Under the pieces are notes generated by a model that did not search any database, was not told the DNA's origin, and saw only the letters and a program-made list of their open reading frames with translations. This document shows positions 30,285-49,699 of a stretch of 64,000 bases of DNA, piece after piece. Position numbers and translations under genes: made by a program. The DNA is from Psococerastis gibbosa (lineage: Eukaryota; Arthropoda; Insecta; Psocodea; Psocidae). The stretch is from NCBI GenBank assembly GCA_963971405.1, contig OZ020485.1:39677469-39741468 (forward strand), written 5' to 3'. Position 1 is the first letter of the stretch, and each line of letters begins with the position of its first letter.

Positions 30285-30831
30285 TCCTGAGCCTGCTGCT
30301 GGGCAAAACTGAAAATTATTAAGCCCTTTATTAATTAATCGATGGAAGAAAATTTTTGTTAGTTATCGTATAGCCTATACTGTAGGTGCGTTTCGTATAT
30401 TAAAGTTATGATTTTAATTTTAAAGTTCTTTTTAGCCGAAAAATCCATTCCGACTTAGTCACTTGCAGATCTGGTTGAGGGGGAAGTAAATAGAACATTC
30501 AGTCCGGAACAAAGAACTATAAATATATTAACCATAATGTTATAATGAAATGCACTTAATGAATTGACGCTCACCTATACGGCTATTCTACCCCATTAAC
30601 CAATTCCCCCCCCCCCCCTCCTATGAATATATATTTACAAGGTTAGGTACCTGGTGTACCGCTGTAAGGTAAGGTTGCTCACGTCTTCATAGTGCGTGGT
30701 AGCAAAGCCAGTGGCGTAAGTGGAGTGGAGGATAATCAGCTGTGTCTGTTTACAGCTGTCAGCTGTTCGAGAGCAAGACCTCATGGAACACGGCGAGTGA
30801 ATCCGAACTTGGCCGAGTATTGCCAGTAGTG

Positions 30832-30865
30832 TCAGTGCGCGCCCGACTCTCGGAGCGCTAGGTCG
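30832..30865 (+). promoter_or_regulatory. TATA-less core promoter: Inr plus DPE
   Basis: TCAGT at 30832-30836 matches the arthropod initiator, with A+1 at 30834. GGTCG at 30861-30865 then falls exactly at +28 to +32 and matches the DPE consensus RGWYV at all five positions; +24 is G, as preferred in DPE promoters. No TATA box is seen about 30 bp upstream. The surrounding 30700-31000 is GC- and CpG-rich against an AT-rich background. The DPE spacing rule is established for Drosophila; applying it here is an inference. The putative leader is 61 nt before the ATG at 30895. Confidence 0.5.
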
Positions 30866-30894
30866 GAGTTCGATGTGAGTGAGCTTACAGTAGC

Positions 30895-30999
30895 ATGGTG
30901 CCGCAGCAAAGCGAGGCTGGCCGATCGTCCAGCCCCGTACAGTTTGGGTCCCAGCTTGTGGATAAACACTCATCAACCCCTTATACAGATGCAACACAG
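30895..30999 (+). CDS. Candidate first coding exon, unknown protein
   Basis: The ATG at 30895 has G at +4 and an in-frame stop five codons upstream (30880-30882), so it is the first start in its frame. It encodes exactly 35 codons, MVPQQSEAGRSSSPVQ onward to STPYTDATQ, and ends CACAG|GTATGTAA, a canonical donor, in phase 0. It is polar, Ser- and Gln-rich, as in disordered N-termini of regulatory or membrane proteins; I do not recognise the family. It lies 61 nt downstream of the Inr/DPE pair. Two other open frames cross it (30875-31099 + and 30635-30997 -); neither is supported by both a promoter and a donor. Later exons were not found; the intron may exceed the window. Confidence 0.5.
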
Positions 31000-32138
31000 G
31001 TATGTAATTTTTATATACAAATTAATCATAGCAATTAATTTCTTAAATTTTTTATTGACAATATTTACGTCAACGGATTGGTCAAACAGTCCCATCTAAC
31101 ATTATCACTTTCGGGTAATTTGACATAACACATCTATGTCATGTCTGTAATGTTTTTTGGTCCAATTGCACCATCTTGGCTCCATCCTATTGCTGGCTTG
31201 AGTTGCTTCACCAAGCTAACTTTGATAATTCATGGTTCCATCCAAGTCAGTGATTCTGATTGTCTAACCAGGTAGGTAAAGTCAATTCAGTTATCAATAA
31301 TCAATTTCATTGAGTGAAATTTTTTCCTCCAAATTTGAGCTCGTAGCATAGACCTGTAGCCCGAGAACTTTATTGTATATTACAAAGTCGCATCCTTCCT
31401 AAAATGTGGTAGGCAGCCTATCTATTGGAAATGCATTCAAGGTCAAGCCCATGCATATTTTTTAGAATATAGGCCTACACAGGCTACAATTTTCAAAATT
31501 CAATATTAGCGTTGTAAGGAAATGGAAATTTGGGTTCTAGGCGTATTAGCCAAGTATAGACTACTATTCTTGCTGACTTTAATGGTTAGGCTTATTTCAC
31601 AACATTGACTTCATATTCTTATTAGCCTAGAGATCATAGTTTTTCCATTACCTATCAAAATTATGAGGGTACTTACAAATATTTAGTACTCCTCTAAAAT
31701 CTATGCATCTTTCTTTAAATCTATTAACATTGCTTTTTTAACTAACTTTCATGTTTAATTCTTTGTTTTACCTATTTTGTTAAATTATTCAAATAAACTA
31801 AATTTAGGCCTTTTAAACGAACTGTTCAGTGTTACGTTTGTGCAGTTTCCACTAGATGAGCTTCTATCGTCTACAAAAGCATTTTCAACGAACTGTTCAG
31901 TGTTTCCACTAGACGAGCTTGTGTCGTGCTATAGGCTGTTTTTGCTCCTCTTTTGGGCTTTCAATATGCTACCACCTCTTTAAGGTTTTGGATTACGTTT
32001 CATTAGTTGCTAATGAAAATAAATAAATGAAAATAAAGGAAATGTCCAGATATGTGCTCTATCTATAGAATACTTACTGTATGTACTCTTTCCGTCACCA
32101 ATATGGCTACAACAATGAAATTACCAATACCTAATATG
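31000..32138 (+). other. Putative start of intron 1, mostly single-copy
   Basis: If the exon at 30895 is real, this is intron sequence. It is AT-rich and low in repeats compared with the rest of the window. A local direct duplication lies at 31822-31925 (CGAACTGTTCAGTG, TTTCCACTAGA.GAGCTT). Confidence 0.4.
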
Positions 32139-32139
32139 A

Positions 32140-32300
32140 TAATAATAATAATAATAATATTAATAACAACTTTTATTTTCCCTCAAGTATACAAATTACA
32201 ATATAATCACATTTGGAAAGACCCCCTTCTACAAAAGATAAAGTAAAATAAAATAAATGTACAATCTAATATTCAAACAATTAGATATATACAGTATCTG
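32140..32300 (-). mobile_element. Retroposon 3' end, family H, copy 2
   Basis: In inverse it matches 7008-7180: CTTTTATTTTCCCTCAAGTA, CACATTTGGAAAGACCCCC and ACAAAAGATAAAGTAAAAT. It is preceded by an ATA/AAT run that would be its tail on the minus strand. Confidence 0.6.
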
Positions 32301-32567
32301 AAAAAATAGTAAAACAAACAAGGTAATAATAAAACAAACAATAAAGTGCAAAACATAGGAAAGTAGTAGATGAGTAGAATTGTAGGTGAAACATCAATAT
32401 TACGTCTTAAGCACGTTTAATATGTATTACAATATTAATATATAGTAATTAAATAAGATAACTGTAGTAGTAAAATCCATGCTATAGCAACTAGTAGGCA
32501 TGTATTTACGTTATCGGTTGTAAAATGCGCCTGCGAATGTACGATTATGCAATTTACGTGTTGTTAT

Positions 32568-32835
32568 TCCTGGAGAATATTTCCATCTGTTGCAATGCAC
32601 AGGATAGGGCCATGGAATGTCTATTTGCCCATTTGCTGGTTAAGCAGCCCATTCACAGCCCGGCAATGAGTTCTATGAACCAATCTTCGGCATCTAGAGT
32701 TTTTCCAGGAAAATATATCCATCGGTTACAATGCAAACAGGATAGGGAATGTTTATTTCCCTATTTGCTGATTAAGCAGCCCATGCACAGCCCGACAATG
32801 AGTTCTACAAACCAGCCTTGGGCACCCAGGGTCAT
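32568..32835. repeat. Tandem duplication, about 136-bp unit
   Basis: Copy 1 (32568-32703) and copy 2 (32704-32835) share TTAAGCAGCCCAT, CACAGCCC and AATGAGTTCTA, with about 15-20% divergence by eye. The 107-codon + frame across both copies may be fortuitous: the unit has no recognised domain. Confidence 0.7.
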
Positions 32836-33500
32836 AAGTGTTGGGTAGTGATTTATGCGAGTGATTCATTGGCGGACCATGATAGGGCTTTTTTGGCTCC
32901 TTCTACTTGGATTGAGGCGTCAATTTCTCAGTTTCGAACACCACAGTCCCTTGATTGATCTATCGTTGGTAGCAAAATGGGAATGCCCCCGCTATGCGCT
33001 TTTTTTGTATAAATTCGATTTCACAGGAAATAACGATCATAGAGCCACCAAAAATCCATTGAAGAAATACTCCTCTACATTTCAATATACTATGACATGT
33101 AGCACTCACTATCGCCAATGGGCCACAATTCTTGAACTCCTTACTCGGGAATACCACACCTATCTTTTTTTAAGCAAATCAAATTGAATAATTACGGCGA
33201 ATCTGTGTTAGAAAGATGTACATCTTATCATGTATTGAAATGCTCAGAAAAATTTGTTCTGTTTGTCCTGATGTTTTTGACAGATTGATATTTCACGAGA
33301 TATTATTTGATGTTTACACTAACAGGTATAATAGTGATTTTTCCTCATCGGATTGTCTCTTAATATAGATCACAGATCCGGGAATTTTACTGACTGACAT
33401 TCATTTTGATATACTGTACATTGCATTGCGATATTGGATTTTTCTCCCGCAGTCCAAGTCTGTTTTATCTGCTGTCACTCCAACAGTTTTCTGTGTAAGG

Positions 33501-33676
33501 CAAGGACGGATACAGGAGGGGGGAGGTGGGGGGGGGGGTAGCTGCCCCCCAAAATTTGGTAAATCTATTGTAAATTAAGTTATTACGCTCTAATTTAGTC
33601 GATCCTACATAAGTTTTTCCTATTTTGACCCTCAGCTACCCCCCCCCCCCCCAAAAATGGGCTGGATCCGTCCCTG
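33501..33676. mobile_element. hAT-like MITE with perfect 8-bp TSD
   Basis: The left end is CAAGGACGGATAC; the right end complements to CAGGGACGGATCC. The flanks are identical: GTGTAAGG at 33493-33500 and 33677-33684. It contains G and C runs and no coding frame. Confidence 0.85.
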
Positions 33677-33919
33677 GTGTAAGGACTATGTATGCAAAAG
33701 GCGATATGTTCCATGAAGCTGTAAATACATAGACAAAATACTTCTAAAATGTAAATGCTTAGCTACATTGTGGGGCACAATATTTCAATTAATATTCCTT
33801 GATAATATATAAATTGAATTAGACTTTTTACAAAAAAAAAAAAAAAAAAAAATGTAGCTGTCAATGTGACGATTCCAGTGATACCAACGCAAGAAATAAT
33901 GTTATGCGACAAATCGATA

Positions 33920-34140
33920 AAGATTTGTACTTGGATAAGTCATGCTTCCATCTGTCACACTGCGCCAATGGTAAGCTTGTCACAGCTTACCCATTATTGG
34001 CTTGTAGCCGGTGAAGGTTGACATCGAGAACGCATACCATACCAGTTTGCCAATGGCCCAAAATTCTTACGGAAACAATAATGTCCGAAACCCATGGGGT
34101 CGTTGGCATTGGATAAGGGATCAATGGACCACTATTAGTA
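33920..34140 (+). repeat. Dispersed repeat family K, copy 1
   Basis: It contains GTACTTGGATAAGTCATGCT, TGACATCGAGAACGCATACC, CAGTTTGCCAATGGCC and GGGGTCGTTGGCATTGGATA. Colinear copies lie at 53470-53700 (+) and 48455-48866 (-). No protein frame is conserved among the three. Confidence 0.75.
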
Positions 34141-34149
34141 GGCTTATTG

Positions 34150-34780
34150 AAGTGAAAACTTCTTAAGAGGCGTTGAGCACTTTTGTATTATTTAGATTTT
34201 AGATGAGTGATAAAAAGGAAAATTGTGATCAAAGGAATTGCAATGTAAGAAGACTGCATCTTGAGTGTGTTCAATGATAACCGCCTGATTAATTTATGTG
34301 ACAAATCGCCTTCTGCATGCATGCTCCTCAGTCCTCACTCCTCATGTAAAGGAGGACAACAGGAGGTGTGTCAGACGACTTTGCTGTCCGCGCATTACCG
34401 TTGTCCCATTGAGCATCGGAATGTCGACATACCCGACAAAGTTATTTTGTTTACCATGATGCTGTTCGCCATCATTGAAAATTTCGCAATCCTTTTGCCT
34501 ATGTTGACACAGGCACATTTACGTTTCTACTTGTATACGCTAACCTTGACCGGAGCGTTTCCTTCTTTATTAGCATGTAGTTGACACACTATCGGAGTTA
34601 CCATTATTCCCGACATTTTTTCTCAATTACCCGTTGTATGTGCGGTATTCTTGGAGGTACATGCTTTTACGTTGCCGCGTTTATGCCAGAACCGCGTTCC
34701 CCTAAACGTTTTCTCAGGCACTGTTCACATAAATGGGCAGACAGGGCATTTGCTGCCCAGGGCGCCAAGCTTCAGGGGGG
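34150..34780. other. No gene recognised
   Basis: The 107-codon frame at 34261-34584 (+) has hydrophobic stretches near its end but no upstream or downstream support; I do not call it. Confidence 0.35.
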
Positions 34781-34784
34781 GGGG

Positions 34785-35080
34785 CGCAATTCTTCTTCCG
34801 CTTCACCCTTAGTGCCGCGTGCACAGGGGGGGGGGGGGGTCGCCCCGAACCTATTTCCTGAACTCGCTCCGGTCGGACGCTGGAGCCTTCAGCTCGGCCA
34901 TTGTTTTCCCTCTTGCTGTGGCAAGTTGTTCAATCCTTTCCTCGAGGGGTGTCCTCGTATGGGTCTTCTTTCTTGTGGCCTTGCTTCTGCCAACCTGATG
35001 GTCGTGTTCTCGTCAATCCTCTGCACGTGGCCCAACCATTGCAGCTGCTGCTTGTTCTCCATTCTTCCCCCTGGGCGCTA
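34785..35080 (-). mobile_element. Non-LTR retrotransposon tail, degraded
   Basis: The minus strand reads NKQQLQWLGHVQRIDENTTI, RLAEARPQERRPIRGHPS and RKGLNNLPQQEGKQWPS. LQWLGHVxRxDE is a standard LINE tail motif, and the following part parallels the fragments duplicated at 55.1-55.6 kb. A G run near 34824 and stops end the frame. Confidence 0.75.
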
Positions 35081-35081
35081 G

Positions 35082-36148
35082 TCGAAATGAAATAATACCG
35101 AAAAGATAAATGTGTTGTTTTAATGACCTAGGTTATACCATTGTTATAATCTGAAATACAATGCATTAACTCTCCGTAACAATTTAAAGACCAGGTTCTA
35201 AGCATTTTTAACTCCATCTCCATTATGGTGTAGCCAAAAGGACACTAAGTGAAACCCCAAGTTGCATTAAGGCAAAGGCAGAAGTAAGGGCTGCGAAACC
35301 CGACTGGCTTAGACTTGTAAAAACTGTCGTATGGTTCCTCAGATTCAGAGGTCAGGGGCCGGTGACTCTGAGGTACCATATAACACTTAAATAATAAAAA
35401 TATTTAAAAAGGATGTGAAACATTATAAAGAAGAAGGCGGGTTTTAAGTGTTCCAAGTATGTATTTGAAACCTACAAAACATTTTGGCATTGTAATATTT
35501 GTCCACGAAGGGAATATCTGCAACAATTGATGGAGGATATACGTACGTACGCGGAGCTGAAGAGGGTGCGTGCCAGGATTGATGCCACATGTTGCTACCA
35601 ACCAGCCAGCTGGCTGTAACTTGAAGAAGAATAGTTGCAGTTAGTTGTAAAATGAAACAAATAAATAAACGCATTATCAGACTGGATTACAACTTAAGTT
35701 TTCATATCCCATATATTCCACGAGCCATTTCACATTTGAGAAGGAAGAAAATAACATTCCAAGTGATAATTCCCGTAGAATATTCAGCGAAGTGTTCTCT
35801 TTGTAATAGAAATAAATAAACTCGCACACTTGGCTGCATATGCTAAGCATTAATGCGAATGCTTTACTTCTCCCCGCATAATAACGTCATTAAGTTTGAA
35901 GATAACGGCCCAGAGCAGAGGTGAAAGTGCCTGGCAGCTTTTATGGTTGTGTGCAGCGGTTCACATGTTCCGATACTTGGCTCCAAAGTTATAGCTCACC
36001 CCCCCCCCCCTCCAGTTGTGCCTATTATTACGATAGATTCAGGTCATGGATAAACTAACATATTGGTGTACTTGTGGTTTATTGCATTGGCAAGAAAATG
36101 TAGGTAATCCCTTTCATATTTTATTTTCGTTGCTCCATTCGTATCCAG
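35082..36148. other. No gene recognised
   Basis: AT-rich; frames at 35404-35674 (-) overlap each other. A C run at 36000-36010 may mark an eroded DNA element. Confidence 0.35.
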
Positions 36149-36149
36149 C

Positions 36150-36355
36150 ATATTGGTGGTTGACTTTTTTTTTTAAAAAAAGGTTAATCCCATACAAACA
36201 ATTCAATGAATGTATCCGATTAACCTCTTCAGTCACCTCACTAAGTTACCTAAACGGTACTTGTGTCGAGTAACGACACGTCTCCGATTGCATGGCGTGT
36301 ACAGACTCGCACATATACAGGCACGCTACCACCTGGCCATCGAAGTCGATGTCGA
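36150..36355 (-). repeat. Dispersed repeat family B, long copy
   Basis: The inverse of 12478-12650: AATGAATGTATCCGATTAACC, GAGTAACGACACGTCTCCGA, TGCATGGCGTGTACAGACTC and CTACCACCTGGCCATCGAAG are all colinear. A run of T and A flanks the left side. Confidence 0.7.
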
Positions 36356-36406
36356 CTTACATTGAATAAACATAATAGTTTCCTTAGTAACTTTGTAAAA
36401 CTTGCT

Positions 36407-36557
36407 GTCACTCATTGTTAAAATTAACTTACGTAAACAGATCTGTTTTCAATCGCACTTGACGATGGCGTGAGTCGAAACCGGTGGTGTATTTTTTTAA
36501 TTTTATTTTATTACGAAAAAACTATACGAAGTTAATTTTAACAATGAGTGACTTACA
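36407..36557. repeat. Short inverted-repeat element with PLE-like centre
   Basis: Arms GTCACTCATTGTTAAAATTA (36407) and TAATTTTAACAATGAGTGAC (36537) are perfect inverted copies of at least 20 bp. The centre contains a hammerhead-like core (36459-36485). The whole is 151 bp. Confidence 0.75.
36459..36485 (+). ncRNA. Hammerhead-ribozyme-like core
   Basis: It reads TTGACGA-T-GGC-GTGA-GTC-GAAA-CCGGT. The first box differs from CUGANGA only by U for the first C; stem II would be GGC/GTC (with a G-U pair) closed by GTGA. The trailing GAAACCGGT also occurs at 48981, where the first box is lost. This pattern is characteristic of Penelope-like terminal regions; catalysis is unproven. Confidence 0.4.
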
Positions 36558-36559
36558 TT

Positions 36560-37300
36560 GAATTTAATTGAAAACCAAAAGGCGAACAATAAGACTATAA
36601 AGTCTTGTTTTCATGCTAACCCTACATTGTGAACGAGCCTTCGGTGGAAAGCATATTATAAAACAGTTATTTTTCAGACAATACGAGTTGATAAATAATT
36701 ACACTGTCAGCGACTAAATTATTTGAATATGTTATTGCTGAGGACTAATTTTCGTGCAATTAAGCCCGGTACACGACACACGGACGATTGTGTCAGTCGC
36801 GATTTGCCAACGTCTTTTCCATGTAGCCATAAGACTAGCAGAAGATTTCTTCTGAAACGCATTTCTGAGTTGGTTAACTTTGTTATATAGCTATTATAAT
36901 ATTATTATATTATATAATTGCTTTGTAATATTTACATTTATTTCAATTATTTATTATATCACAAGCAATAACTGTAAATTTTTAACAGTAGAATAACCAA
37001 AATTAACAAAACCTATAAACAAACGTGGTAGGCTGCTAAAATAGAGTTCTGCCACTCATTAAACAGTGCCACGAACGTCCTGACTCTTACTACGTTGTTT
37101 AGTCTGTAAAATATTTTCGATTTAGCATTATAACTCACCCCGAGGTCCGCTTACGATTGTGTGTTAACTTGGATAACACTTTTAACAATCTAACTCGATA
37201 ACACCGACATTGTGAAGTCCCTTAAAATTTTATTGCTTGCTTGCTTTAATGCTTACGGGGTGTAAGATATTGTTTGGACTTACATTCGGTGCAAGTATTT
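36560..37300. other. No gene recognised
   Basis: AGACTATAAAGTCTTGTTTT at 36592 and TTCATGCTAACCCTACAT recur as AGACTATAAAGTCTTCTTTT inside the element at 37310, so an unnamed retroposon tail is shared. No coding signal. Confidence 0.4.
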
Positions 37301-37309
37301 CGTTGGAAC

Positions 37310-37759
37310 CAAGAGTGGATCCAGCAGAAAATTTAGGGGGGGGGGGGCACAAGTTGTATGTAAGTTTAAAAGGTAATTGTTTTGAATTGAATTCGACTTT
37401 ATTGAATAAAAACAAAACAAACGGCGAAGAATAAGACTATAAAGTCTTCTTTTCATGCTAACCTTAAAAACAAACATATTGCATATTAATACATAGATGC
37501 TTAAAATTAAACAGAGAAGAAACAAGAGAAGAAGAGGGGGGAAGAAGGTTAAGGGGGGGGGGCAAAGGGAATCCATTGTCGTCACCATTATGAGACCGGA
37601 GAGTCTCAAGCGTTATCTACAATATGTTGTTTAATAATTTTCTTGCAGCTACTGAGTGAACTAGCTAGAATTTTGTTTAAAATTTGAGTTTTATTAATTT
37701 TTTTATTATTATCATATGAATATACACCCCCCCCCCCCCCCCCCGTGGATCTGCCATTG
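37310..37759. mobile_element. hAT-like element (CAAGAGTGGATCC family)
   Basis: The left end CAAGAGTGGATCC and right end (complement CAATGGCAGATCC) match the 4922 family. Flanks GTTGGAAC (37302) and CTTGGAAC (37760) agree at 7 of 8. The interior includes a retroposon-like segment shared with 36.6 kb and several G and C runs. Confidence 0.7.
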
Positions 37760-37764
37760 CTTGG

Positions 37765-38508
37765 AACCTACTACCTACTGCGTGTCCTCAAATGCATGTT
37801 ATTATTTAATGTTGGTTTGTAAATTTTAACCCAGGGCAATGAGCGGTTTTACGCGATCGTAGATAGCTTCGATTGAGGCGTTGAAGTGCGAAACGTCATT
37901 AATTGAGGTCACTGGCCCTGTTCAATTAAATGAGTCATAACACCGTTTTCATGAAGTAGAGTTTGATGTTACCGCTTCTTCTTCTGACGGTGTTCTCGTG
38001 TCGCCGTGGAGGGAACATGACTCACCCATTTTTAGCTTGTGACTGATGACATTATGAGCCAGATTTATCCAGACTCATTTTTTGCAGTCCTTATTATTCT
38101 CTTTTGTGGAGGGCTTTAAAATGTATAAATTTTAAAATAAAGTTCGAAATATACTTCATATAATGAGTAATGAATATTAAATATTATATTGAACGACAAT
38201 AAAGTAATTTATAAAAAAAAAAAAACAGTCAAATTCAAATCAGTCGAGATCAAATTGGACGAAAACAAATGCCTATGGGGGCCCCTAAGGATTTCCCGTG
38301 TTTTTTAAGTAAAGAATATTATAGTCATTGTTAAATGCTCAATAAACCCTCAATAGCTGCACACCTACACTTGTTCAACTTGCCCCTTCAACTTGCGTTT
38401 CAACAACGAATCAGCTACGTGAGATTCTTGTCGCTCATTGGTTACTCACATGTGAGGACGTCGAACTGACAACGCAAAAGGATATACAGAAAAATAAACA
38501 AAGAAATA
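37765..38508. other. No gene recognised
   Basis: TTGAAGTGCGAAACGTC near 37880 loosely resembles the right half of the hammerhead-like motif but lacks a usable first box. Otherwise AT-rich single-copy sequence. Confidence 0.35.
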
Positions 38509-38511
38509 ATA

Positions 38512-38645
38512 ATAATCTTTCTTTCTTTCTTTCTTTTCCTTGTTCAGTATTCCCTGGACAAGGAGCATATATTACAAAAATACAATACATAATAATACCA
38601 TCCTGCATCCCCAAGCTAACGCTTATTAGGGACAAAAGACTCATA
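38512..38645 (-). mobile_element. Retroposon 3' end, family J, copy 1
   Basis: In inverse it shows CTTTCTTTCTTTCTTT, TATTCCCTGGACAAGGAGCA, AATACAATACATAATAATAC and CATCCCCAAGCTAACGCTTA or close variants. Copies are at 38905-39065 (-) and 56860-57018 (+). GAAA repeats mark the 3' tail. Confidence 0.7.
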
Positions 38646-38751
38646 CAGTGCTGCTAAACAAGGCTTAATCATTTATTTTTGTTATTTATTTATAATGTTT
38701 ATTTTATTTTATTTTAACTTGTTATTTTAATGTCAGTTTTTATTATTATTA

Positions 38752-38905
38752 TTAACTCCCATTGACCAGCCATCTTTTTATACCCGCTTTTAAGTCACCC
38801 ATCTGTTTAAATTTTTTCATTTGTGGAGGAAGTTCATTAAATATCTTTGGTATAAGTACTTTGTTTAATCTCTCTCCGTATTTGTTATATGTTATCTCAA
38901 ACTTA
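38752..38905 (-). mobile_element. Non-LTR retrotransposon C-terminal fragment (CR1/L2-like, tentative)
   Basis: The minus-strand frame reads KFEITYNKYGERLNKVLIPK, then IFNELPPQMKKFKQMGDLKA, then GIKRWLVNGS and a stop at 38752. T.YG.......P.IFNELP.......F...K..WL is the typical closing segment of many invertebrate LINE reverse transcriptases. Family J sequence abuts it upstream. The clade call is tentative. Confidence 0.65.
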
Positions 38906-39065
38906 ATAATCTTTCTTTCTTTCTTTCTTTTCCCTGTCCAGTATCCCCTGGACAAGGAGCATATATTTACAAAATACAATAACTTACATAATAATACCAT
39001 AATATTATAATAATAACATCCCGCATCCCCAAGCTAGCGCTTATTTGGGACATAAGACTCATAAT
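38905..39065 (-). mobile_element. Retroposon 3' end, family J, copy 2
   Basis: CTTTCTTTCTTTCTTTTCCC, GTATCCCCTGGACAAGGAGC and CATCCCCAAGCTAGCGCTTA match copy 1 about 390 bp away in the same orientation. Confidence 0.7.
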
Positions 39066-39287
39066 AATAATAATACGTGTATTTAACCAAAAAAAACATT
39101 TGACATTCTTCTAATAACCTGTGCCACAAAGCCAATAAATGAATAAATAAATGAACCCAATGTGAATGAGAAACGATTAAGAGTTGTTATTAATGAGTTG
39201 TTATTAATGTATCTTGTTATTTTTTATAGCATTAATATTCACTCAAATCGTCCCTAGACTAACCTACAACTTAAATAGGCCCCCCCA

Positions 39288-39405
39288 GGCGCGGATCTAC
39301 GGGGGGCTATGGGGCTATAGCCCCCCCCCCCCCAATTTGGGTCCTCAAAATGCGTAAAACCCCAATATTTCAGCCCTATTTAAAAAAAAAAAAAAAAAAA
39401 AAACT
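39288..39405. mobile_element. Remnant of a poly-C DNA element
   Basis: CAGGCGCGGATCTACGGGGG, GGGGCTATAGCCCC and TTGGGTCCTCAAAATGCG followed by an A run. The left terminus is hAT-like; no right terminus is visible. Confidence 0.4.
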
Positions 39406-39714
39406 AAACTAACTATTCCGGTCCCACATGTCCAAGTCCGGCACTGAAAAGACAATTAAACTACATAATAAGCAAGACATTACAAGGTGAAACTGCTCCA
39501 GCCTTTAGCCTTCAGACTCTCCCAAGAAGAACTGTCCTTGGAAGTTGGAACTAGGAAAGAAAGACGAGCACAAAAAAAAATGTGGGGTTGCGCGACAGGG
39601 GTGAAACAGTTCCGACCCCCTGCTAGGTCCATCGCTACCTGCACCAACACCAAATAAAACCGGGTGAAGGAATGGCTCCATAAGACCAAAAATCATAACG
39701 TTCTCGCTCTTAAG

Positions 39715-40085
39715 GGCAAGCCGGAGTCGCCTATATTCCATTTTCTGTTCAAACTTTAATGTCTCATGAAATATGGAACGCAGAACAATGAAAAAATGCT
39801 GAATGGCAAGAAGAATTTTTTCTCCTAATTTTGATGTGGCCTTAACTAACCCCAATTCGCCACAGTCGATGAACTCCTTCAGCTTGAACTCCTGAGTGAC
39901 CGTTATTTTTTACTTATCAAGTTCACTAACTATAGCCGATCAGTATTGATGATTGCAACATACTATGCATCAAAATTAGGGGAAAAAAATTCTTCTTTCC
40001 ATTCAGCATTTTTTCATTGTTTTGCGTTCCATATTTCATGAGAAATTAAAGTTTGCACAGAAATATCGGCGACTGGGGTTTGCCG
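39715..40085. repeat. Large inverted repeat, about 125-bp arms
   Basis: The left arm (39715-39840) contains TCATGAAATATGGAACGCA, CAATGAAAAAATGCTGAATG and TCCTAATTTTGATG; the right arm (39958-40085) contains their inverses CATCAAAATTAGG, CATTCAGCATTTTTTCATTG and TGCGTTCCATATTTCATGA. The loop is about 115 bp. The minus-strand frame 39505-39855 partly lies in the left arm and is not supported as a gene. Confidence 0.8.
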
Positions 40086-40118
40086 TTAAATTATGCATTC
40101 ACTTAGGTGAGGCCTTAC

Positions 40119-40248
40119 CAAGGACGGATACAGGGGGGGGGGGGGCAGGAGGGTTGCTGCCTTTATTACGCTTTGATTTAATCGATCCTACATGTGTTTT
40201 TCCTATTTTGACACACCACTCCCCCCAAATGGGCTGGATCCGTCCCTG
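40119..40248. mobile_element. hAT-like MITE with perfect 8-bp TSD
   Basis: The left end CAAGGACGGATAC and right end (complement CAGGGACGGATCC) are flanked by identical GGCCTTAC at 40111-40118 and 40249-40256. A G run of about 13 bp follows the left end. Confidence 0.85.
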
Positions 40249-40387
40249 GGCCTTACCTTAAATCAACCCGGACTTTCAGCCATCATCTTAGTAAATACAA
40301 TGCGACACTGTACGAAGATTTAACATCATATTAATATATAATCCTTCAGTGGATTACTTAAATGCGTTATTTGTACGTACTATCTAA

Positions 40388-40826
40388 GGCCCCCATTCCA
40401 CATACGTACAACGTCAATGAAAATTATGAAATTGAAGGACATTTCAATTCCTCATGGATGGGGGCCATTCCATATGTTTTTTCAAAAATTGACGATTTTC
40501 AATTGAAGCATATGCGCCAAATTTTTGAAATTTGTTTGCATTTGTTTCTTGAAATTGTATTTGTTTTCTTCGTCGCCTTATTATTTAAACCTTATTATAA
40601 TTTTTATACAGAAATGCTTTCTTTTTAGAGAAATCAATTAAAATAGTTGTACTTGTCATATCCCATGACGCCATTTTTTAATTTTAGATTGTTTGTTTCA
40701 TTGTTTGTGATTTTACTCTATGATCAATTGATCATTGATCAATTTTAACAATGGCATAGAGTAAAATTGAAATGTCCTTCAATTTCATAATTTTCATTGA
40801 CGTTGTACGTATGTGGAATGGGCGCC
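40388..40826. mobile_element. PIF/Harbinger-like MITE, copy 3
   Basis: The left end GGCCCCCATTCCACATACG and right end (complement GGCGCCCATTCCACATACG) continue as a TIR of about 65 bp through ACGTCAATGAAAATTATG and ATTGAAGGACATTTCAAT. Flanking TAA at 40385-40387 and 40827-40829. The core around 40640-40760 is shared with the copies at 11.4, 14.3 and 44.3 kb. The 88-codon frame inside is fortuitous. Confidence 0.85.
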
Positions 40827-41229
40827 TAAGCCCGAGCAGCCGATCTTAGTGAAATGCCATAAAAAATGTTCCTTCATGTAATTATTATGCATGACGATGT
40901 CTGGTCAATGGTCAGCCTTATGGGCAGCATATTGCACAATGTTGACTTATTCCATTACTTCCCATGGCAACACGACCGCTGATAACCTAACCCCAGTGCA
41001 ATACTATTAAATTGGATTATGTCCTATATAGGAAGTGTTTTGCGATAAGATAAGGGAATAATATTTCTTGTTGTGTCTGGATCATTTTCTGCGGTATGAT
41101 GAATATATATACTATGTTATTGAAGGATTCATTTCTTTTAATTTTATTCACTTCAACAAATTGGGCGGCTTAATTGTTGTGTTAGTCTTTGCCCAAAAAA
41201 TGGGAAATGGTGCAATTGTGATGAGTTTT

Positions 41230-41640
41230 TCTCACATTTTTATTTCCATCATTGGTACCAATCCTTCTTCCGAGGTCCGAATCTCAACGGTTGGCACCGG
41301 CATATCATCATCCAGCTCTCTCAGTCCTGCGTCTTCCTCTTCAGCTCTTGGCACGTTCGAGCTCCAGCGTCGTCCTTCAGTTAGTCCATGAATTGCTTCT
41401 TCGGCCGGCCTCTCTGTTGGTTCCTCCCGCTGTGCCATCAATGATGGTGTGTACCTAGATTTTGGTGTTTTAATAAATGCACTACCCATTTCGCTCTTCT
41501 ACTTTTTATATGAGGTAGCAGCTGTCTCTCTTCTCCAATGTCCAAATTCTATCATTGGTCACGTGGTCCCTCCAGCTGATCTGTGGCATCCTTCTGTAAC
41601 ACCAAACGCTTCAATCCTATCAGAAGTTAAAGTTATCCAA
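41230..41640 (-). mobile_element. Non-LTR retrotransposon tail, frameshifted
   Basis: Across several frames the minus strand gives RIEAF, YRRMPQISWRDHVTNDRIW, then RRAKWVVHLLKHQNLGTH, then QQRGRPKKQFMD, colinear with the fragment at 25440 (RRAKWMGHLLRHENLV, RRGRPKKEFMDQ). At least two frameshifts and several stops show it is dead. The 85-codon open frame at 41232-41489 is the wrong frame. Confidence 0.8.
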
Positions 41641-41644
41641 TTAT

Positions 41645-42335
41645 AAAAGTCCCCCTCTTTTTTTTCTATTTTGGGGTGCGTTTTTTGCGTATACACTTAA
41701 ACCTTGTGGTCTTTTGTGGCCCCTAGTTCACAACACCCATTCCTTTATAATATAAAGGGTCTAGAAATAAAGGAAGCTAGGGTCTTGCGGGAATGTACCT
41801 TTTTCAGGGTGAACTTTTTGTAGCCAAAGGTAGCTGAACTAAGTCTATTATACGGTATACTGTACGTTGGCTTCGCTATGGTCGGGATATTCCTTACTAA
41901 AGCGTAGCCTCTCAACCGTCCCACAAAATTATGTACCAATCCCATAAGACTAGCAATTGTTTACTGTACGGCAGGTTTATGCAATCATGAATCATTGAGA
42001 CTGTTGGAAATAGCAGAAAAAGGGTGTACAGCGTTCAAATTGCTGGGTCTGCATGTTGCTGCCAGTCGTTTCTTACAAGAAGCACTGTCCATTGTCTACT
42101 GACTATGCCCCCATCCCTGTAAGCTTTAAGCTGGAAGGTATATAGTACAGTTCAGAAGAAAACTAAAACAACATCTTCTTGAGAAATGCTGGTATGTTGA
42201 GGACATGATGTGGAACTAGGCAACCATTTGTGATAGCCGATATATTCTTCTTATTTTTCTCATTGCTGATAGTATTGATAACTGATATTTGTCGTGTTTT
42301 GTACGTTGTCGGTATATATAAATTATAGTTGTTTT
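41645..42335. other. No gene recognised
   Basis: AT-rich, short chance frames only. Confidence 0.35.
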
Positions 42336-42337
42336 TT

Positions 42338-42392
42338 AAGGTTAATCGCATGCAAACAAAGTAATGAATGTATCTGATTTACCTCTTGGACT
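42338..42392 (-). repeat. Dispersed repeat family B, short fragment
   Basis: AAGGTTAATCGCATGCAAAC, TAATGAATGTATCTGATTTA and CCTCTTG match the inverse of the family's 3' end. Confidence 0.6.
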
Positions 42393-42504
42393 TTTATTCA
42401 AAATGAATCAATAGAGATATTTTCTATGATATTCTATACAATAAATTATTAAACATATTAAAATGTGTGTTTAAATGCAATCAAAGTCAAACACAATTTC
42501 CAGC

Positions 42505-42535
42505 CATAATATAATATAATATAATATAATATAAA
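42505..42535. repeat. Microsatellite (ATAAT)n
   Basis: About six head-to-tail ATAAT units. Confidence 0.8.
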
Positions 42536-42644
42536 TATAATACCTTAGTGTCCGTGTTCCATTCAATTTCAGAGTTACTACTACTATGCGATAATATTAA
42601 TATTGGCTTTGCAGTATGATAAAATCGCGTAAAAATTATTATTG

Positions 42645-42690
42645 AAGAACCAGTAGAATCCGGCCGTGAAAGCCTTTGCAGTTACAAAAT
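42645..42690. repeat. Rearranged fragment of repeat F
   Basis: GAAGAACCAGTAGAATCCGG is joined directly to CCGTGAAAGCCTTTGCAGTT, two pieces also present at 7957-8010 but there in a different arrangement. It sits about 20 bp from the end of the inverted Penelope-like copy. Confidence 0.55.
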
Positions 42691-42699
42691 TATTATTAT

Positions 42700-42971
42700 T
42701 ATGATATTATCAATAAACAAAAAATAACAAAAACTTAGAGTTTTAGAAAAACTTGTTATAACAACCCGAATTAGTAAAACCCAAATAATCGTTAAGAAAT
42801 TAACTTTGTCTAAGAAACCCACTTGTGTTAGTATAAAACCCTGAGCGCTTTCGGCAAGAACTGCCATCTACAGAGGGAAACCCACTAGCACAGTTACACC
42901 TTATCTGCGATTTGAGACTTGCTCAACTCGAGGAGAAGATGCTAATGTGACTAGGGAGAGGAAACCTTGGT
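42700..42971 (-). mobile_element. Penelope-like element 3' region, inverted copy
   Basis: In inverse it is nearly identical to 21425-21680, including TTGAGCAAGTCTCAAATCG, the hammerhead-like core (42846-42873) and TTCTTAGACAAAGTTAATTT. It ends in ATT-type repeats near 42700. Confidence 0.85.
42846..42873 (-). ncRNA. Hammerhead-ribozyme-like core, second PLE copy
   Basis: The minus strand repeats the 21523 core unchanged: CTGTAGA-T-GGC, AGTTCTT, GCC-GAAA-GCGC. Both copies share the A-to-U change in the first box, so it was in their common source. Confidence 0.4.
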
Positions 42972-43260
42972 TTATATAGGACTGGGAGGAGGGGGTGGGA
43001 GGGGGCGTGGCTGGTTACCTATTCCTAACTTACTAGCTAGATCTATTAGAGGGGATGATTGTGTGAATGTTATGTCGTTTGTTAATTTTTCCCTATTGTG
43101 TAAAGCTCTTTTGATTTCAACATTTTCAAAAAAATTTAAAGTGTAACTTTTCTTTATTTTGTGTAGGGCTGTCCAATTGTGAGGATCGAATGTGTGATTT
43201 TCCGAGTTAAGGTGTTTCGCGAATGTGCTGTTGGTGTTGGTGTCTCCTATACCTGTTACT
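42972..43260 (-). pseudogene. Penelope-like element GIY-YIG fragment, inverted copy
   Basis: From about 43256 the minus strand reads TGIGDTNTNSTFAKHLNSEN, then HTFDPHNWTALHKIKKSY, then IKRALHNREKLTNDITF, ending with a TAA at 42972-42974. It matches 21140-21424 almost residue for residue, but the YIGQTGR strand is cut off by the breakpoint at about 43258. The proline-rich end is shortened by a few residues. The open frames called in the opposite direction here are shadows. Confidence 0.8.
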
Positions 43261-43276
43261 GTTACCTGTTACTGTT
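43248..43276. repeat. Breakpoint with short tandem filler
   Basis: CCTGTTACTGTTACCTGTTA and CTGTTACC repeat a CTGTTAC unit at the junction between the inverted and forward Penelope-like copies. Confidence 0.6.
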
Positions 43277-43400
43277 ACCACAAGTGGGTTTCTTAGACAA
43301 AGTTAATTTCTTAACGATTATTTGGGTTTTACTAATTCAGGTTGTTATAACAAGTTTTTCTAAAACTCTAAGTTTTTGTTATTTTTTGTTTATTAAAATG
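43277..43400 (+). mobile_element. Penelope-like element 3' end, forward piece
   Basis: ACAAGTGGGTTTCTTAGACA, TTAACGATTATTTGGGTTTT and TTTTTCTAAAACTCTAAG are the exact inverse of 42712-42835, so the two form inverted arms of about 120 bp around the GIY-YIG fragment. Confidence 0.8.
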
Positions 43401-43699
43401 AAATACCACGATGTCACGAGCAATCTAATTATTTATGATATTATCAAGTCTATACTCATTTGGACATGGAAATCCCCCAACGTAAAATATACAAAGGGCT
43501 TGAATCGTCAAGATCAAGAAACTCTTGTGATAGACCGTTTCTTATCAGCAAATATCGTAAATTTTACCCGTTGAGTTTAGTTATTTCATTTCGTTGATAA
43601 CCATAATGAATGTAAAAATTATTTTAGTCAGGCTACTTAACCTGAGTAGCTTTTCAATTGCCAATTAATTTTTTAATTAGCAATAAAGCACGACTGGTT

Positions 43700-43885
43700 A
43701 GATAATTAATACTTCAGCTTTTGCAAAATTGAGAGTCAAACGTATTAAGAGGACATACTACGTGGATAATAATTAGCACCCCTAATTGTGTTATTTTTAT
43801 TTACTTTTTTATTTTGGGGTGTCAATTTTCTTCCTCTTAATTACACTTCAGCTGTTGCAAAATCGAGAGTTAAACGTGTTAACTG
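43700..43885. repeat. Diverged direct duplication
   Basis: ACTTCAGCTTTTGCAAAAT with GAGAGTCAAACGTATTAA (about 43711-43750) recurs as ACTTCAGCTGTTGCAAAAT with GAGAGTTAAACGTGTTAA (about 43845-43884), a direct repeat at about 134-bp spacing. Confidence 0.6.
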
Positions 43886-44251
43886 CATTAGGAAAATAAT
43901 TGGAAAATCATTGTATTGCAGAGTTGAAGCAGAAACTGAGTGGGTGTGGTCACCTAAGAATGTCAGTCGCATGAGACGTTTTGTTTGGTTAAATTCTTGG
44001 TGATTTTCCGAATCAGAGGATTTGGATAGTGAGTTTCAAAAATTGGGTGTCCAACGAAAGTTGTGGGTGACTTTGTCATTTTCTATAGTTTTGTAATTTT
44101 AGCTTCCCAAAAAATGCTGTAAACATCAGTATTAAGATTAATTACGCTTTCTAAGTTAGCCAGCAGCCAATAGCTTTTAATTATTATAAAATCCGCAAGC
44201 TTTGGCGTCTCTATAACTTACTTCGCAAAGTGGCTCGATATACTGTACTTA

Positions 44252-44678
44252 GGCGCCCATTCTACATACGTACAACGTCAATGAAAATTATGAAATTGAA
44301 GGACATTTCAATTTCTCATTGATGGGGGCCATCCATATGTTTTTCAAAAATTGACAATTTTCAATTGAAGCGTATGCGCCAAATTTTTGAAATTTCTTTC
44401 TTGAAATTGTATTTGTTTTCTTCGTCGCCTTATTATTTAATCCTTGTTATAATTTTTATACAGAAATGCTTTCTTTTTAGAGAAATCAATTAAAATAGTT
44501 GTACTTGTCATATCACATGACGCCATTTTTTAATTTTATATTGTTTGTTTCATTGTTTGTGATTTTACTCTATTATCAATTGATCATTGATCAATTTTAA
44601 CAGTGGCATAGAGTAAAATTGAAATGTCCTTCAATTTCATAATTTTCATTGACGTTGTACGTATGTGGAATGGGCACC
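44252..44678. mobile_element. PIF/Harbinger-like MITE, copy 4
   Basis: The left end GGCGCCCATTCTACATACG and right end (complement GGTGCCCATTCCACATACG) are flanked by TTA at 44249-44251 and 44679-44681. The sequence is colinear with copy 3, apart from a deletion of about 15 bp on the left side. Their high similarity suggests a recent common source. Confidence 0.85.
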
Positions 44679-44875
44679 TTATATCGTTCCGTATTGTGGT
44701 TGTTTTTTCTCATGTTTATTGTGTTTTTCTCCCTTCTTTTTTTGCATTTATTCAGCCATATTTTATGTATCATATTATTCTAACATTCTAAACTGTTTTA
44801 AATTAATATCCTTGGGGGACCCCCTACCACTAATTAATGTAATATGCTGTTGACCTGATGTAATGCTGTAGTAGT

Positions 44876-45112
44876 AGTAGTATGGTTGGACACAGTCCCA
44901 GGCCACGGTGTGGGCCCATAGGACTCCAGTGGACCTCCTGATTATAGTGGATTCCGAACCACTTGGGAAACACATTGAAGTCACACGATTAGTTCGGAGG
45001 TGACCAGGACAAGTCCTACCATGTTTCCCTACCGGCACTATGCACACGCCCAATTTATCTGCAGCTTTGAACCTGCTCTGGTCCGCTGGATTCAACTTGG
45101 TATGGCGGCCGG
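44876..45112 (+). mobile_element. Repeat G (232-bp retroposon-like element), copy 1
   Basis: It runs from GTATGGTTGGACACAGTCCC through ATTCCGAACCACTTGGGAAA and TCCTACCATGTTTCCCTACC to CAACTTGGTATGGCGGCCGG. It is nearly identical to 46199-46430. An AGTAGTAGTAGT stutter precedes it. The minus-strand frame 44775-45095 is a shadow. Confidence 0.8.
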
Positions 45113-45124
45113 CTAAATAATGCT

Positions 45125-46078
45125 GTAAAGTTCTTATATTATTGTATTAGGTGTTCTCATGTAAAAGTTCTTGCACAGTATTATGACAGCCAGTCTTTCC
45201 TGATGCTGAGCCTGCCACTCTACAAAGTCTTGTTTATTTGACCTTGTAAACGTCAAACATCCGTTTGTTTGAGGAGGACCGTTGTGATAAGCGTTCAGGT
45301 ACCGTACTCAACTGAGTACCAAGTACCGACTTGCACCGAGCACTGGTATACTTCCCATCCATGTTTTTGTTGACGTAAATGGGTTATGGGTTCAAATACC
45401 AGCGTTTACCACACACAATGAAATCATAAATTAATATTATTAAATTGATGAAAAATAAAAAATGGTTTCAAACAAATTTTTCGAATATTTTACTCTGTAA
45501 AAAAAAAAATTAAATAATTTATAAGGAAGTTGATTGTTGATATTGTAGGATACATAATATACACCCCTTGATCCCTCAATTGTTTTGTTGTTTTATGTAT
45601 TTATGTATTTATGTATAATGTATTTATGTTTTATGTATTTTTTTTAAATTTAATATGTAAAGGATTTTGTCTAACATTGATTCGATTTAATATTTATTCG
45701 ATCGAAGAAATATTTGGATTGTCTATTATTTATATCCGATTTATCTGATTTTTTTGAATTCAGATATTAAACGTTTCAATTTTTCTTAGAACCATATTTA
45801 TTGGATCAAATATTAGAACAATATTATATAAGTGGGTAATCAGGTGGTAATGTAAAGGATTATTTCCGACATATACTACTATTATAATACGATAAATATA
45901 TTATATTGAGTATATATTGTAGTATATTATATATTTTAGTTTTGGTGCAGGAAAAATTATAACACAAAAATTAAAAATACGTTATAAGTGGCGTATAACG
46001 CAGTTCTCTATGCAACGTATAAATAAACCAAATCATTATAATTTACGTAGCCTATTAAATGAAATAAAAAATATAAAT
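45125..46078. other. No gene; very AT-rich
   Basis: Contains TGTATTTATG tandem stutters near 45594-45640 and TATATA-type runs near 45890-45940. No coding signal. Confidence 0.45.
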
Positions 46079-46198
46079 CGAGTTCGAGTCCTACACTTCC
46101 TACATTTTCTTCGGAGGGCATGTAAAGCAGGCGGTCCCGGGACTTCCTAGTTGAGTGTTGAGGCTATATAGCCCTAATTCCGCTAGGTTGGCTTAGTA
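46079..46198 (+). mobile_element. SINE family A, left part of a split copy
   Basis: CGAGTTCGAGTCCTACAC (B box GTTCGAGTCC), CGGAGGGCATGTAAAGCAGG and CTTCCTAGTTGAGTGTTGAG lead to CGCTAGGTTGGCTTAGTA, where repeat G interrupts. The right part resumes at 46431. Confidence 0.85.
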
Positions 46199-46430
46199 GT
46201 ATGGTTTGACACAGTCCCAGGCCACGGTGTGGGCCCATAGGACTCCAGTGGACCTCCTGATTACAGTGGATTCCGAACCACTTGGGAAACACAGTAAAGT
46301 CACACGATTAGTTCGGAGGTGACCAGGACAAGTCCTACCATGTTTCCCTACCGGCACGTGCACACGACCAATTTATCTGCAGCTTTGAACCTGCTCTGGT
46401 CCGCTGGATTCAACTTGGTATGGCGGCCGG
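46199..46430 (+). mobile_element. Repeat G inserted in a SINE, 18-bp TSD
   Basis: The 232-bp repeat is flanked by two identical copies of CGCTAGGTTGGCTTAGTA (46181-46198 and 46431-46448). A perfect 18-bp duplication points to target-primed (LINE-driven) retroposition. On the minus strand it holds GGTTCGGAATCC, loosely like a tRNA B box, but I cannot place an A box. The insert ends GGCGGCCGG with no A tail. The frame at 46319-46552 is a shadow. Confidence 0.85.
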
Positions 46431-46482
46431 CGCTAGGTTGGCTTAGTAATAGAACAAAAAAGTCAATATTTATTTATTTATT
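46431..46482 (+). mobile_element. SINE family A, right part of a split copy
   Basis: CGCTAGGTTGGCTTAGTAAT, AGAACAAAAAAGTC and a TATTTATTTATTTATTT tail complete the SINE interrupted at 46198. Confidence 0.85.
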
Positions 46483-46489
46483 TAAATCA

Positions 46490-47224
46490 ACAGATTTTGA
46501 GGTGATTGAGGGGTGGTCAATAAGTACGGTCAGTTTCCTTTTAGCAACTTAAAATATGGGGTAGCAGTTTATGCTATTTTTTATGCCCAAATTGGGAAAA
46601 GGGTAGGCTACATAGCAATTTATTTAAGGTTAGTGAAATCACTATCATCTTCCCTCCCAACTCAGCACTCTAGGGGTAATAAAGGTTCTATATATCTGTC
46701 ACTATCTTTATTTATTTCCATTAACCAGTGAGGAAGTTCTCACAGGCAAGTGTTTTCTTGTTTACTTTAGTGGTACTTTTCCACCAATACACAGATACTT
46801 TTATTGCAGGTTGAACTGTAGACCTACTTTTTTTTTTTACTTTAAAGAGACGATTGTTCATCTCTGACTATACAGTGCTACCTGAGTGCCTAACCCTACT
46901 GCAAAAATGGATTAATAGGGGGGGGGGGGGGCGTGCATTAACGAAAAGAAACGCATAATCGCCTGTTTAAGTCCATGAAGATATTTACTTGGAGAGATAA
47001 GGGTTGGGTGGCGGTTTTGTGCTCAGTAGGATGTAAAAAATAGATATTGATAATAATAATAAAGTCTTTATGGAAAATAATAATAATGTAGATACAGCGA
47101 GATTAGGGCCTATGGACCTCTCTTACACCTAACTGTACATTTCACCCCTAGATCACTCAAAATCAGTCAGTTTCTATTATATACTTAATTAACTACGTAA
47201 GCTATATTGGTCTATCCATGTTGA
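46490..47224. other. No gene recognised
   Basis: A G run lies at 46918-46932, and near 47050-47150 there is a weak AATAATAAAGTCTTTATGG segment resembling 61255-61330, a short retroposon tail. No coding signal. Confidence 0.4.
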
Positions 47225-47227
47225 AGA

Positions 47228-47428
47228 AGACTACATGATACAAAATCCCGAAAGGTTGTTGGTTTGAGTCCCACATTACCTACATTTTCTGGCCATGCTA
47301 CGGAGGACATGTAAAGCAGGCGGTCCCGGGCCTTCCTAGTTGAGTGTAAGAGAGGGCTTCATAGCGCTAACTCTGCTAGGCTGGCTTAGTAATAGAACAA
47401 AACATTCAATCTTTATTTATTTATTTAA
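47228..47428 (+). mobile_element. SINE family A with B box
   Basis: CCCGAAAGGTTGTTGGTTTG (B box GGTTTGAGTCC, one change), CTACATTTTCTGGCCATGC, GGACATGTAAAGCAGGCGG, CTTCCTAGTTGAGTGTAAG, CTGGCTTAGTAATAG and a TTTATTTATTTATTT tail. The A box is eroded. Confidence 0.85.
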
Positions 47429-47744
47429 TTTAATATCATAGGGTATTTTTACTTTTTGCTGCTGCCATTTCTCCATAAACTCTATAATGCCTGAAATGTT
47501 ATTTCATTAAATAATTACAAAACCAAAAAATTAAAAATACCATACGATATTTTTGTATGAAGTAGCCCTTTACAACTAGCATAGACCAAATCTTTACAAC
47601 TTACATTGTTGATAGTAAATGAAATAAAAATTAAAAACCGATTCATCCGGGAATAACCTCATAATCCTCATTATTTCCAGATTAGAAATAAATTGGTTGC
47701 AATTGGTTGGCTTACCTTCTCCGTTATAAACAACAAATGCCTTG

Positions 47745-47982
47745 CAGCCCCCCCCCTCCCCCAAAATTTAGTAAACATATTATTGTAAGTTAATTAGTAC
47801 ACGGGAACCTTTGGAATACCCCCTTCACAATTGTAAAACTACCTAATTATTAATTGTACATTTATGTTGATAAATATACGATTTTCATTTCATTTTCACA
47901 CTCTAATTTAATCGAAACTACATATGTTTCTTCTATTTTGACCCACAAATGCCCCCCCCCCCAATGGGCTGAATCCGCCCCT
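47745..47982. mobile_element. hAT-like remnant lacking its left end
   Basis: The right side reads CCAATGGGCTGAATCCGCCC and CTG like the 33501 family, and the left side has AAAATTTAGTAAACATATTA as in that copy. The left terminal repeat is missing and no duplication is visible. Confidence 0.45.
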
Positions 47983-48454
47983 GGCCCCACCCCCATCCTA
48001 TAATGTCAAGTGCCAGCACCACCCACCATAGTAACGTAGCGACAACAATGCATAGTAATATTGGAAAGCGAAATGACTATGGTAATGTGAGTGAAGGCAT
48101 GTTCTCCAGTGATTGGCGGGTTGGATCAATTTCAAGGCCAGGTACACGGTTGACTCATTGGCCTTCACCTCAACACTGACCTCTGTATGTGCGACGATTA
48201 ATTATTACGGGAAGTGGGGCGTAAGCGAGCATTACCGCGTTGCCAACTATTGGCAGGCAGTGGTAGTGCTTTAGTTTTTTTCTTAAACAGAAAGTCCCCC
48301 ACAAGAACGATAGGGGATAATTTATAGCACATTAATATCGGACGCAACTCACTCGAGACGAGTATAGACTCGTCACCTCGTAAAATTGAGTTTCTATCTA
48401 GTAAATAACTTATCAGGAGGTAATAGTAGTAGTTATAATGACCTCAAGGACTTT

Positions 48455-48667
48455 TTATGAACCCATAGGTCCCTTGTCCAATGCCGACGACCCCATGGAT
48501 TTCGGACGTTATTTGTATTGTTTCCGTATACATTTTTGGTCATTGGCAAATTGGTACACGTCCTCGATGTCAACCTACACCGGTTACAAGCGCGATAATG
48601 GATACGCTGAGACAAAGCTTACCATTGACGCAATGAAACAGACGAAAGTATGGCTTAACCAAGTACA
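48455..48667 (-). repeat. Dispersed repeat family K, copy 2 (interrupted)
   Basis: It is the inverse of 53470-53700: CCATAGGTCCCTTGTCCAAT, GCCGACGACCCCATGGATTT, GGCAAATTGGTACACGTCC and AAGCTTACCATTGACGCAAT. The copy continues after the hAT-like insert as CAAGTACAGATACGAG (48836-48866). A + frame of 94 codons (48438-48722) runs through it, but its reading is not conserved in the other copies. Confidence 0.75.
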
Positions 48668-48835
48668 CAAGGCCGTAGCCAAGGGGGGGGGTTCATGGGG
48701 GTTCAACCCCCCCCCCCTATGAAATGGCTTGATACTAGATAGAATCGGATTTTGAGAGAAAAAATAAAAACCACTTTGTGAAATTTCCACCCCCCCCCCC
48801 CCCCCGCGCCAAAAAAAATCCTGGCTACGGCCTTG
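48668..48835. mobile_element. hAT-like MITE with perfect 8-bp TSD inside repeat K
   Basis: The left end CAAGGCCGTAGCC and right end (complement CAAGGCCGTAGCC) are identical 13-bp inverted repeats. It is flanked by CAAGTACA at 48660-48667 and 48836-48843. Three G or C runs are internal. Removing it restores the repeat K sequence seen at 53470, which proves the insertion polarity. Confidence 0.9.
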
Positions 48836-48959
48836 CAAGTACAGATACGAGTCGAAATGGCTAGGGATCGAGGGATATTGTATTTCTATAGTGTTTTGTT
48901 TATAACGTGACAATCTTAATGTAAAGCCAATAACTTTTTTAATTTTAATTTTTATCTGC

Positions 48960-49010
48960 TCACTTGACAGTTACAATTAGCCGAAACCGGTTGTGATGAA
49001 TGTTTTTTTA
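48960..49010 (+). repeat. PLE-like terminal motif, degraded
   Basis: TTGACAGTTACAATTAGCC followed by GAAACCGGTTGTGATGAATG parallels the core at 36459 (GAAACCGGT), but the CUGANGA box is destroyed. Confidence 0.4.
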
Positions 49011-49014
49011 TGTA

Positions 49015-49698
49015 ATATTTTTATTAACTTATACCTATTACAATGGCCTCTGGATAAACTACTCATTAGTTTGGGAGGAGTCAAAATGCCGAAAGCTTCG
49101 TCCTTGTGGCCTAATTATATCAGAAAAATTTCTACAATTACCTTGAAAATCAATTGACGTGTTTGCCTGTGGCCTATAAGAACTTCATTGAGAATCATTA
49201 GCCTTGATCCTAACTACGTAAAGCCAACTTTAAAGTACTCTATAATGCCCTTTGCGATATCACCTGCAGCCCATCTAAAGCACGCCCCCCCCCCTCTCTC
49301 TTTCGAGATTGCTCCCCTTCGGTTGCTGGTCGTTAACGTATCTTCTTTAAGCAATCGTCTCCCTAAACAGCTATTTGTCGAAATAAATGGGGTCCATTAA
49401 GAATGGATATTATGTTGAACCGACGACCTATTGGAGGAGGCTCATATTCACAAAATTTATTGATTGAAGCTATACTTTATTGGTACTTATTGCTTTCCTT
49501 TTTATTTTTAAGTTGTGCTTATATAGCCGGGGGTTTAAAATAGATTGCGTAGGTACGTAGCCTTCAACGGTACTTACTGTATTTTTTTTTAATGATAATT
49601 TTATTCATGATTATCGTATCATATCGTAATTCCTTGGAAGAACTTCAATGTCAAAATTAACCAGTTACACATAACATTTTTTTTTTATCATTATCGCT
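49015..49698. other. No gene recognised
   Basis: A 70-codon + frame at 49188-49400 includes CACGCCCCCCCCCCT and shows no domain. No repeat partner. Confidence 0.35.
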
Positions 49699-49699
49699 T

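Follow-up and report, generated by a model that had tools for sequence, protein, structure and literature searches.

The first coding exon of a SoxC-type gene and its likely very long first intron in Psococerastis gibbosa

The fly group C Sox gene, Sox14, responds to ecdysone and is required for metamorphosis, and SoxC is expressed in the embryonic nervous system of other invertebrates (PMC6307133). Introns located inside the HMG box are described for groups D, E, and F (PMC6307133), passages of PMC2386450 mention no SoxC intron, and a limited literature search found no description of a SoxC intron before the HMG box. In the insect SoxC-type proteins compared here (Zootermopsis P0004, Anabrus P0008, Schistocerca P0018, and Bacillus rossius P0023, together with P0002), the N-terminal segment ends directly before TKK[NH]NPNHIK and the HMG box. 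The DNA analysed, referred to as the window, is a stretch of 64,000 nt from contig OZ020485.1 of Psococerastis gibbosa, in which position 1 is the first letter. It contains an exon sharing the N-terminal pattern of these proteins, MVPQQ...RS..P...FGSQL..K.S.TPYTDATQ. Compared with the insect proteins, the loop that separates the SP block from the FGSQL block is shorter in the window exon, and the gene is seen through exon 1 alone.

The exon lies at 30895..30999 on the forward strand. Its ATG at 30895 opens 35 codons, encoding MVPQQSEAGRSSSPVQFGSQLVDKHSSTPYTDATQ, up to a phase-0 CAG/GTATGT donor, and an in-frame TGA stop precedes the ATG at 30880..30882. All of these elements had been listed in the original prediction and are seen in the sequence. 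Read past the donor, the frame reaches a stop at 31036. The exon segment is single-copy in a self-repeat comparison within the window, and searches of Pfam and PDB with the 35-residue peptide returned no matches.

A protein search with this peptide had been proposed as a check, and it connects the 35-residue exon to the N-termini of insect SoxC-type HMG-box proteins. When the first 40 codons of the exon frame were used as the query, 23 of 27 candidate proteins passed the cut-off of E<=10 (E 5e-6 to 0.076), with an identity of 63-70% across 88-90% of the 40 residues, and every one of the 23 carries a PF00505 HMG box. Thirteen of them, which come from termite, katydid, locust, stick insect, and Lepidoptera, are labelled as Sox-type proteins or sem-2 (Sox-11, Sox-12, SOX-4, SOX-14, sem-2, sox-2-like, and SOX-15-like), and the labels are inconsistent, with sox-2-like and SOX-15-like among them; eight have no source name and two are called only an unnamed product or HMG box. 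The best-ranking named match among the 23 reached an E-value of 3.6e-4. In the opposite direction, tblastn of the 23 proteins against both strands of the whole window placed all of them on 30895-30999 (E 8e-12 to 4e-7), with one match starting at 30892 and some reaching 31002. The same search gave no match better than E 0.085 beyond the exon and no HMG box in the window. In an alignment of 17 rows, consisting of the window peptide and 16 of the 23 relatives, 23 of the 35 positions are invariant. This homology puts the exon of 35 codons well outside what chance would produce. Judged by this homology, the peptide is the conserved N-terminal segment of insect SoxC-type proteins (MVPQQ...FGSQLVDK..TPYTDATQ).

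The assignment to group C draws on the labels of the relatives and on three HMG-box comparisons with solved structures. For each of the three HMG boxes compared, those of P0002, P0004, and P0010, the chains of the vertebrate group C proteins SOX-11 and SOX-4 were the top-scoring structures, ahead of SOX-2, SOX-9, SOX-17, and SOX-5, with a margin over SOX-2 of roughly 5 to 15 bits. In the insect proteins, these SOX4/SOX11 matches start at residues 43-52, and the N-terminal segment therefore lies outside them. P0002, the closest full-length relative, served as the query of a second search, which was read from the best 120 of 3,899 proteins; among the matches listed, its nearest named relatives came from lice, namely Polyplax (84%), Pediculus (80%), and Menopon (77%). 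The nematode protein P0042 lacks the insect form of the N-terminal tail. The naming of the gene as SoxC (Sox4/Sox11 group) is thus strongly supported by sequence comparison, with labels that vary. By way of these insect relatives, the window gene would share its Sox group with Drosophila Sox14, a protein not found by name among those listed in the searches.

The 5' splice site, GTATGT at 31000..31005 in phase 0, ranks 22 of 7,051 GT sites on both strands under a Drosophila-like matrix, and the homology to the relatives ends exactly at this donor. The corresponding position was read from the translated open reading frames of 124 relatives, comprising the 23 proteins of the first search and the best 120 of the 3,899 from the P0002 search with duplicates removed. 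Among those listed, DATQ is followed directly by TKK, leading into the HMG box, in 95 of 124, while 13 have unrelated residues up to TKK, 15 start inside the HMG box (13 at MNAF and two at MVWSQ), and one, a nematode, differs. Seven of the 13 that change at TKK have a Q just before it, in mostly F/L-rich residues, as phase-0 translation of a pyrimidine tract with its CAG acceptor would give; the six without this Q (Pediculus, Diploptera, Planococcus, and three Timema) are different models. A third query, a 47-codon frame running beyond the donor, yielded 17 short database proteins that hold the exon segment (best E 9.5e-11). In 16 of these, V (GTN) directly follows DATQ, extended to VS in 12 of the 16, which is how GTRAGT-like donors would be translated; the exception is P0141, and P0142 lacks the MVPQQ start. 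The two best-scoring of the 17 look similar to P0002 by eye, a hint of Psocodea for which 35 residues are too short a basis. From the donor-side V and the acceptor-side Q before TKK, we infer an old phase-0 intron at this place. Database proteins likely show this intron from both sides, with the window donor exactly at that place. The phase-0 junction DATQ/TKK is accordingly represented by its exon-1 side in the window and its exon-2 side in the translated frames of the relatives, whose intron likely occupies the identical codon boundary.

Downstream of the donor, the predicted first coding intron (31000..64000, forward strand) holds several repeat families and no other SoxC exon, and it leaves the window after at least 33,001 bp. 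No Pfam family was found on the forward strand at 31000-63999 in three frames (E<=0.1) or at 1-30002 (E<=0.01), and on the reverse strand at 31000-61001 nothing besides a zinc-finger fragment was found at E<=0.01, the scan of 61002-63998 on that strand covering one frame. The window contains no Rfam match at gathering thresholds and no tRNA according to ARAGORN. The relatives share a conserved C-terminus, SSSSGSHFEFSC, which has no match in the window and would fall outside it. Since no HMG-box exon is present in the window, an intact gene would likely have a first coding intron of more than 33,001 bp. With no further SoxC piece, no forward-strand Pfam family, and several repeat families in the interval, the earlier guess that the first intron covers much of the right half probably holds. 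The broader claim of a live host gene is sustained for its coding first exon, true donor, and very long first intron, which the homology strongly supports. It is very likely that the window holds the first exon of an insect-type SoxC gene with a donor at a probably conserved place, from which phase-0 splicing is predicted to reach, over more than 33 kb, an HMG-box exon beyond the window.

Several other elements were observed across the window. At 57800-58180 on the reverse strand lies a C2H2 zinc-finger fragment with two open fingers (PF13465, E 1.3e-15) and a third finger that, by eye, is split between two frames; antisense within the predicted SoxC intron, it is probably a relict. Repeated fragments at 17934-18080, 24741-24953, and 52226-52468 are 72-89% alike and have no Pfam match; they resemble the end of a LINE reverse-transcriptase open reading frame. 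Inverted copies at 21132-21677 and 42719-43258, 94-98% alike and about 21 kb apart, are perhaps a young mobile element pair. A 244-bp unit is present in 1.9 tandem copies at 55077-55549 (93% match), with a pyrimidine-rich strand and an AT skew of -0.28. Ecdysone-receptor-like palindromes with one mismatch occur at 6332, 32669, 37906, 55595, 57606, 58125, and 59869 (forward strand), which makes seven against 1.69 expected, a count reached by two of 100 shuffles. Six of the seven fall in the predicted intron, and none is near the SoxC exon.

Upstream of the exon, an Initiator-like TCAGT at 30832..30836 places a predicted start site (A+1) at 30834, and a DPE-like GGTCG at 30861..30865 falls at +28 to +32, with a G at +24 between them; the coordinates and exact spacing given in the original prediction are as the sequence reads. 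The consensus sequences in Drosophila are TCAKTY for the Inr and RGWYV for the DPE, of which G(A/T)CG is the most trusted core (PMC1475891, PMC1538597). As in Drosophila DPE-type core promoters, the window has RGWYV at +28 with the GWCG core, here GTCG. Unlike them, it has TCAGTG in place of TCAKTY, failing at the last base, and its start site is predicted from motifs. The looser Inr forms TCAGT and BBCABW are both matched here, and inspection of -40 to -16 by eye showed nothing TATA-like. With a start at 30834, the predicted 5' leader would run from +1 up to the ATG, a length of 61 nt (30834..30894), and would contain a start-stop upstream ORF, ATGTGA, at 30873..30878, 16 nt ahead of the ATG. 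A five-codon upstream ORF at 30783-30800 would belong to the leader only if transcription begins further upstream.

The surrounding CpG-rich stretch, defined by at least 200 bp, GC>50%, and CpG o/e>0.6, extends over 30606..31034 and has no self-repeat. It had been described as the one CpG-rich island of the window, which is wrong: 33 stretches qualify, 11 of them without self-repeats including that of the exon, and its CpG count per 300 bp is equalled or exceeded at seven other places.

Whether the Inr-DPE pair marks the promoter was considered against chance. Over the whole window, TCAGT with RGWYV at +28 occurs once on the forward strand against 0.97 expected and twice on the reverse strand against 1.1 expected, and BBCABW with RGWYV occurs 12 and 21 times, respectively. 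TCAGT-DPE pairs thus stand at chance level window-wide, which, like the failure of strict TCAKTY, favours an alternative in which the coding exon is real, the pair is a chance match, and the start site lies elsewhere upstream or a non-coding exon is spliced in. A 5'-UTR intron is made possible by the acceptor-like TGTTTACAG ending at 30755, which ranks 258 of 7,002 AG sites under a crude matrix, and a strong donor-like AAG/GTAAGG at 30669 ranks 3 of 7,051 under the Drosophila-like matrix. Against chance speak the after-the-fact dinucleotide shuffles of the local 240 bp (30695-30934), where TCAGT with RGWYV gave P=0.012, the addition of G+24 P=0.0036, and TCAKT with the narrower GWCG core P=0.006; the tighter definitions together span about 0.004-0.015. 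In the same shuffles, looser Inr definitions gave P 0.03-0.09 for BBCABW, 0.15 for any CA, and 0.41-0.78 for any YR. The exact spacing of Inr, G+24, and DPE, 61 nt before a homology-backed start codon, and the position within a CpG-rich stretch without self-repeats point in the same direction as the tighter tests. The alternative start is a plausible reading that we do not prefer, and the Inr-DPE promoter, predicted from motifs mildly above local chance, is favoured at slightly better than even.

The coding exon itself could be an orphan, a duplicate or relict of the SoxC first exon that has lost its connection to an HMG box, as the absence of the HMG exon from the 33 kb downstream would allow. 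However, the open frame, the upstream in-frame stop, the intact donor, and the match to every one of the 16 aligned relatives at 23 of 35 positions suggest continued selection, and a retrocopy would have the HMG box fused on, which makes this reading very unlikely. The window has many open frames (527 that run from stop to stop over 45 codons or more), and the antisense frame at 30638-31021 is also open, over 128 codons, so that a chance frame in a CpG-rich stretch, sense or antisense, might be imagined. Its probability is close to nil: Pfam gave nothing for the antisense frame at E<=0.1, the sense frame is homologous to SoxC-type proteins, and for the sense frame chance is refuted by the protein-search and tblastn homology.

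For the preferred reading, a SoxC first exon joined to a distant HMG-box exon, transcription would start in the CpG-rich stretch just 5' of the exon, perhaps at position 30834, the A of the Inr-like motif, and exon 1 would be spliced in phase 0 across a repeat-bearing intron of more than 33 kb, removed in one or more steps, to the HMG-box exon. In the protein, the N-terminal 35 residues would form an exon-encoded tail immediately adjoining the HMG box, and the mature protein would bind DNA via the HMG box and may regulate genes of the ecdysone response or of neurons, as described for other group C Sox proteins. Roles in the ecdysone response, metamorphosis, and the nervous system may be carried over to the window gene by analogy. 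A further proposal, which we consider improbable, is that insect SoxC consists of two separable cassettes, a detachable N-terminal tail exon of 34-44 residues and the HMG box, parted by the old phase-0 intron, with alternative first exons yielding SoxC proteins that either have the tail or lack it; a hint of such exons comes from the Timema and Pediculus models, in which the change falls exactly at TKK. If so, an intron of more than 33 kb bearing repeats would part the tail exon from the HMG box in this species.

A motif-based guess has thus become a named gene, whose exon 1 can be placed in the genome annotation, and a 35-codon exon proved identifiable from protein databases alone through the read-through frames that flank a conserved intron. 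SoxC here is an ordinary, well conserved developmental gene of a kind already known; its biology is ordinary, and its first intron is likely very long.
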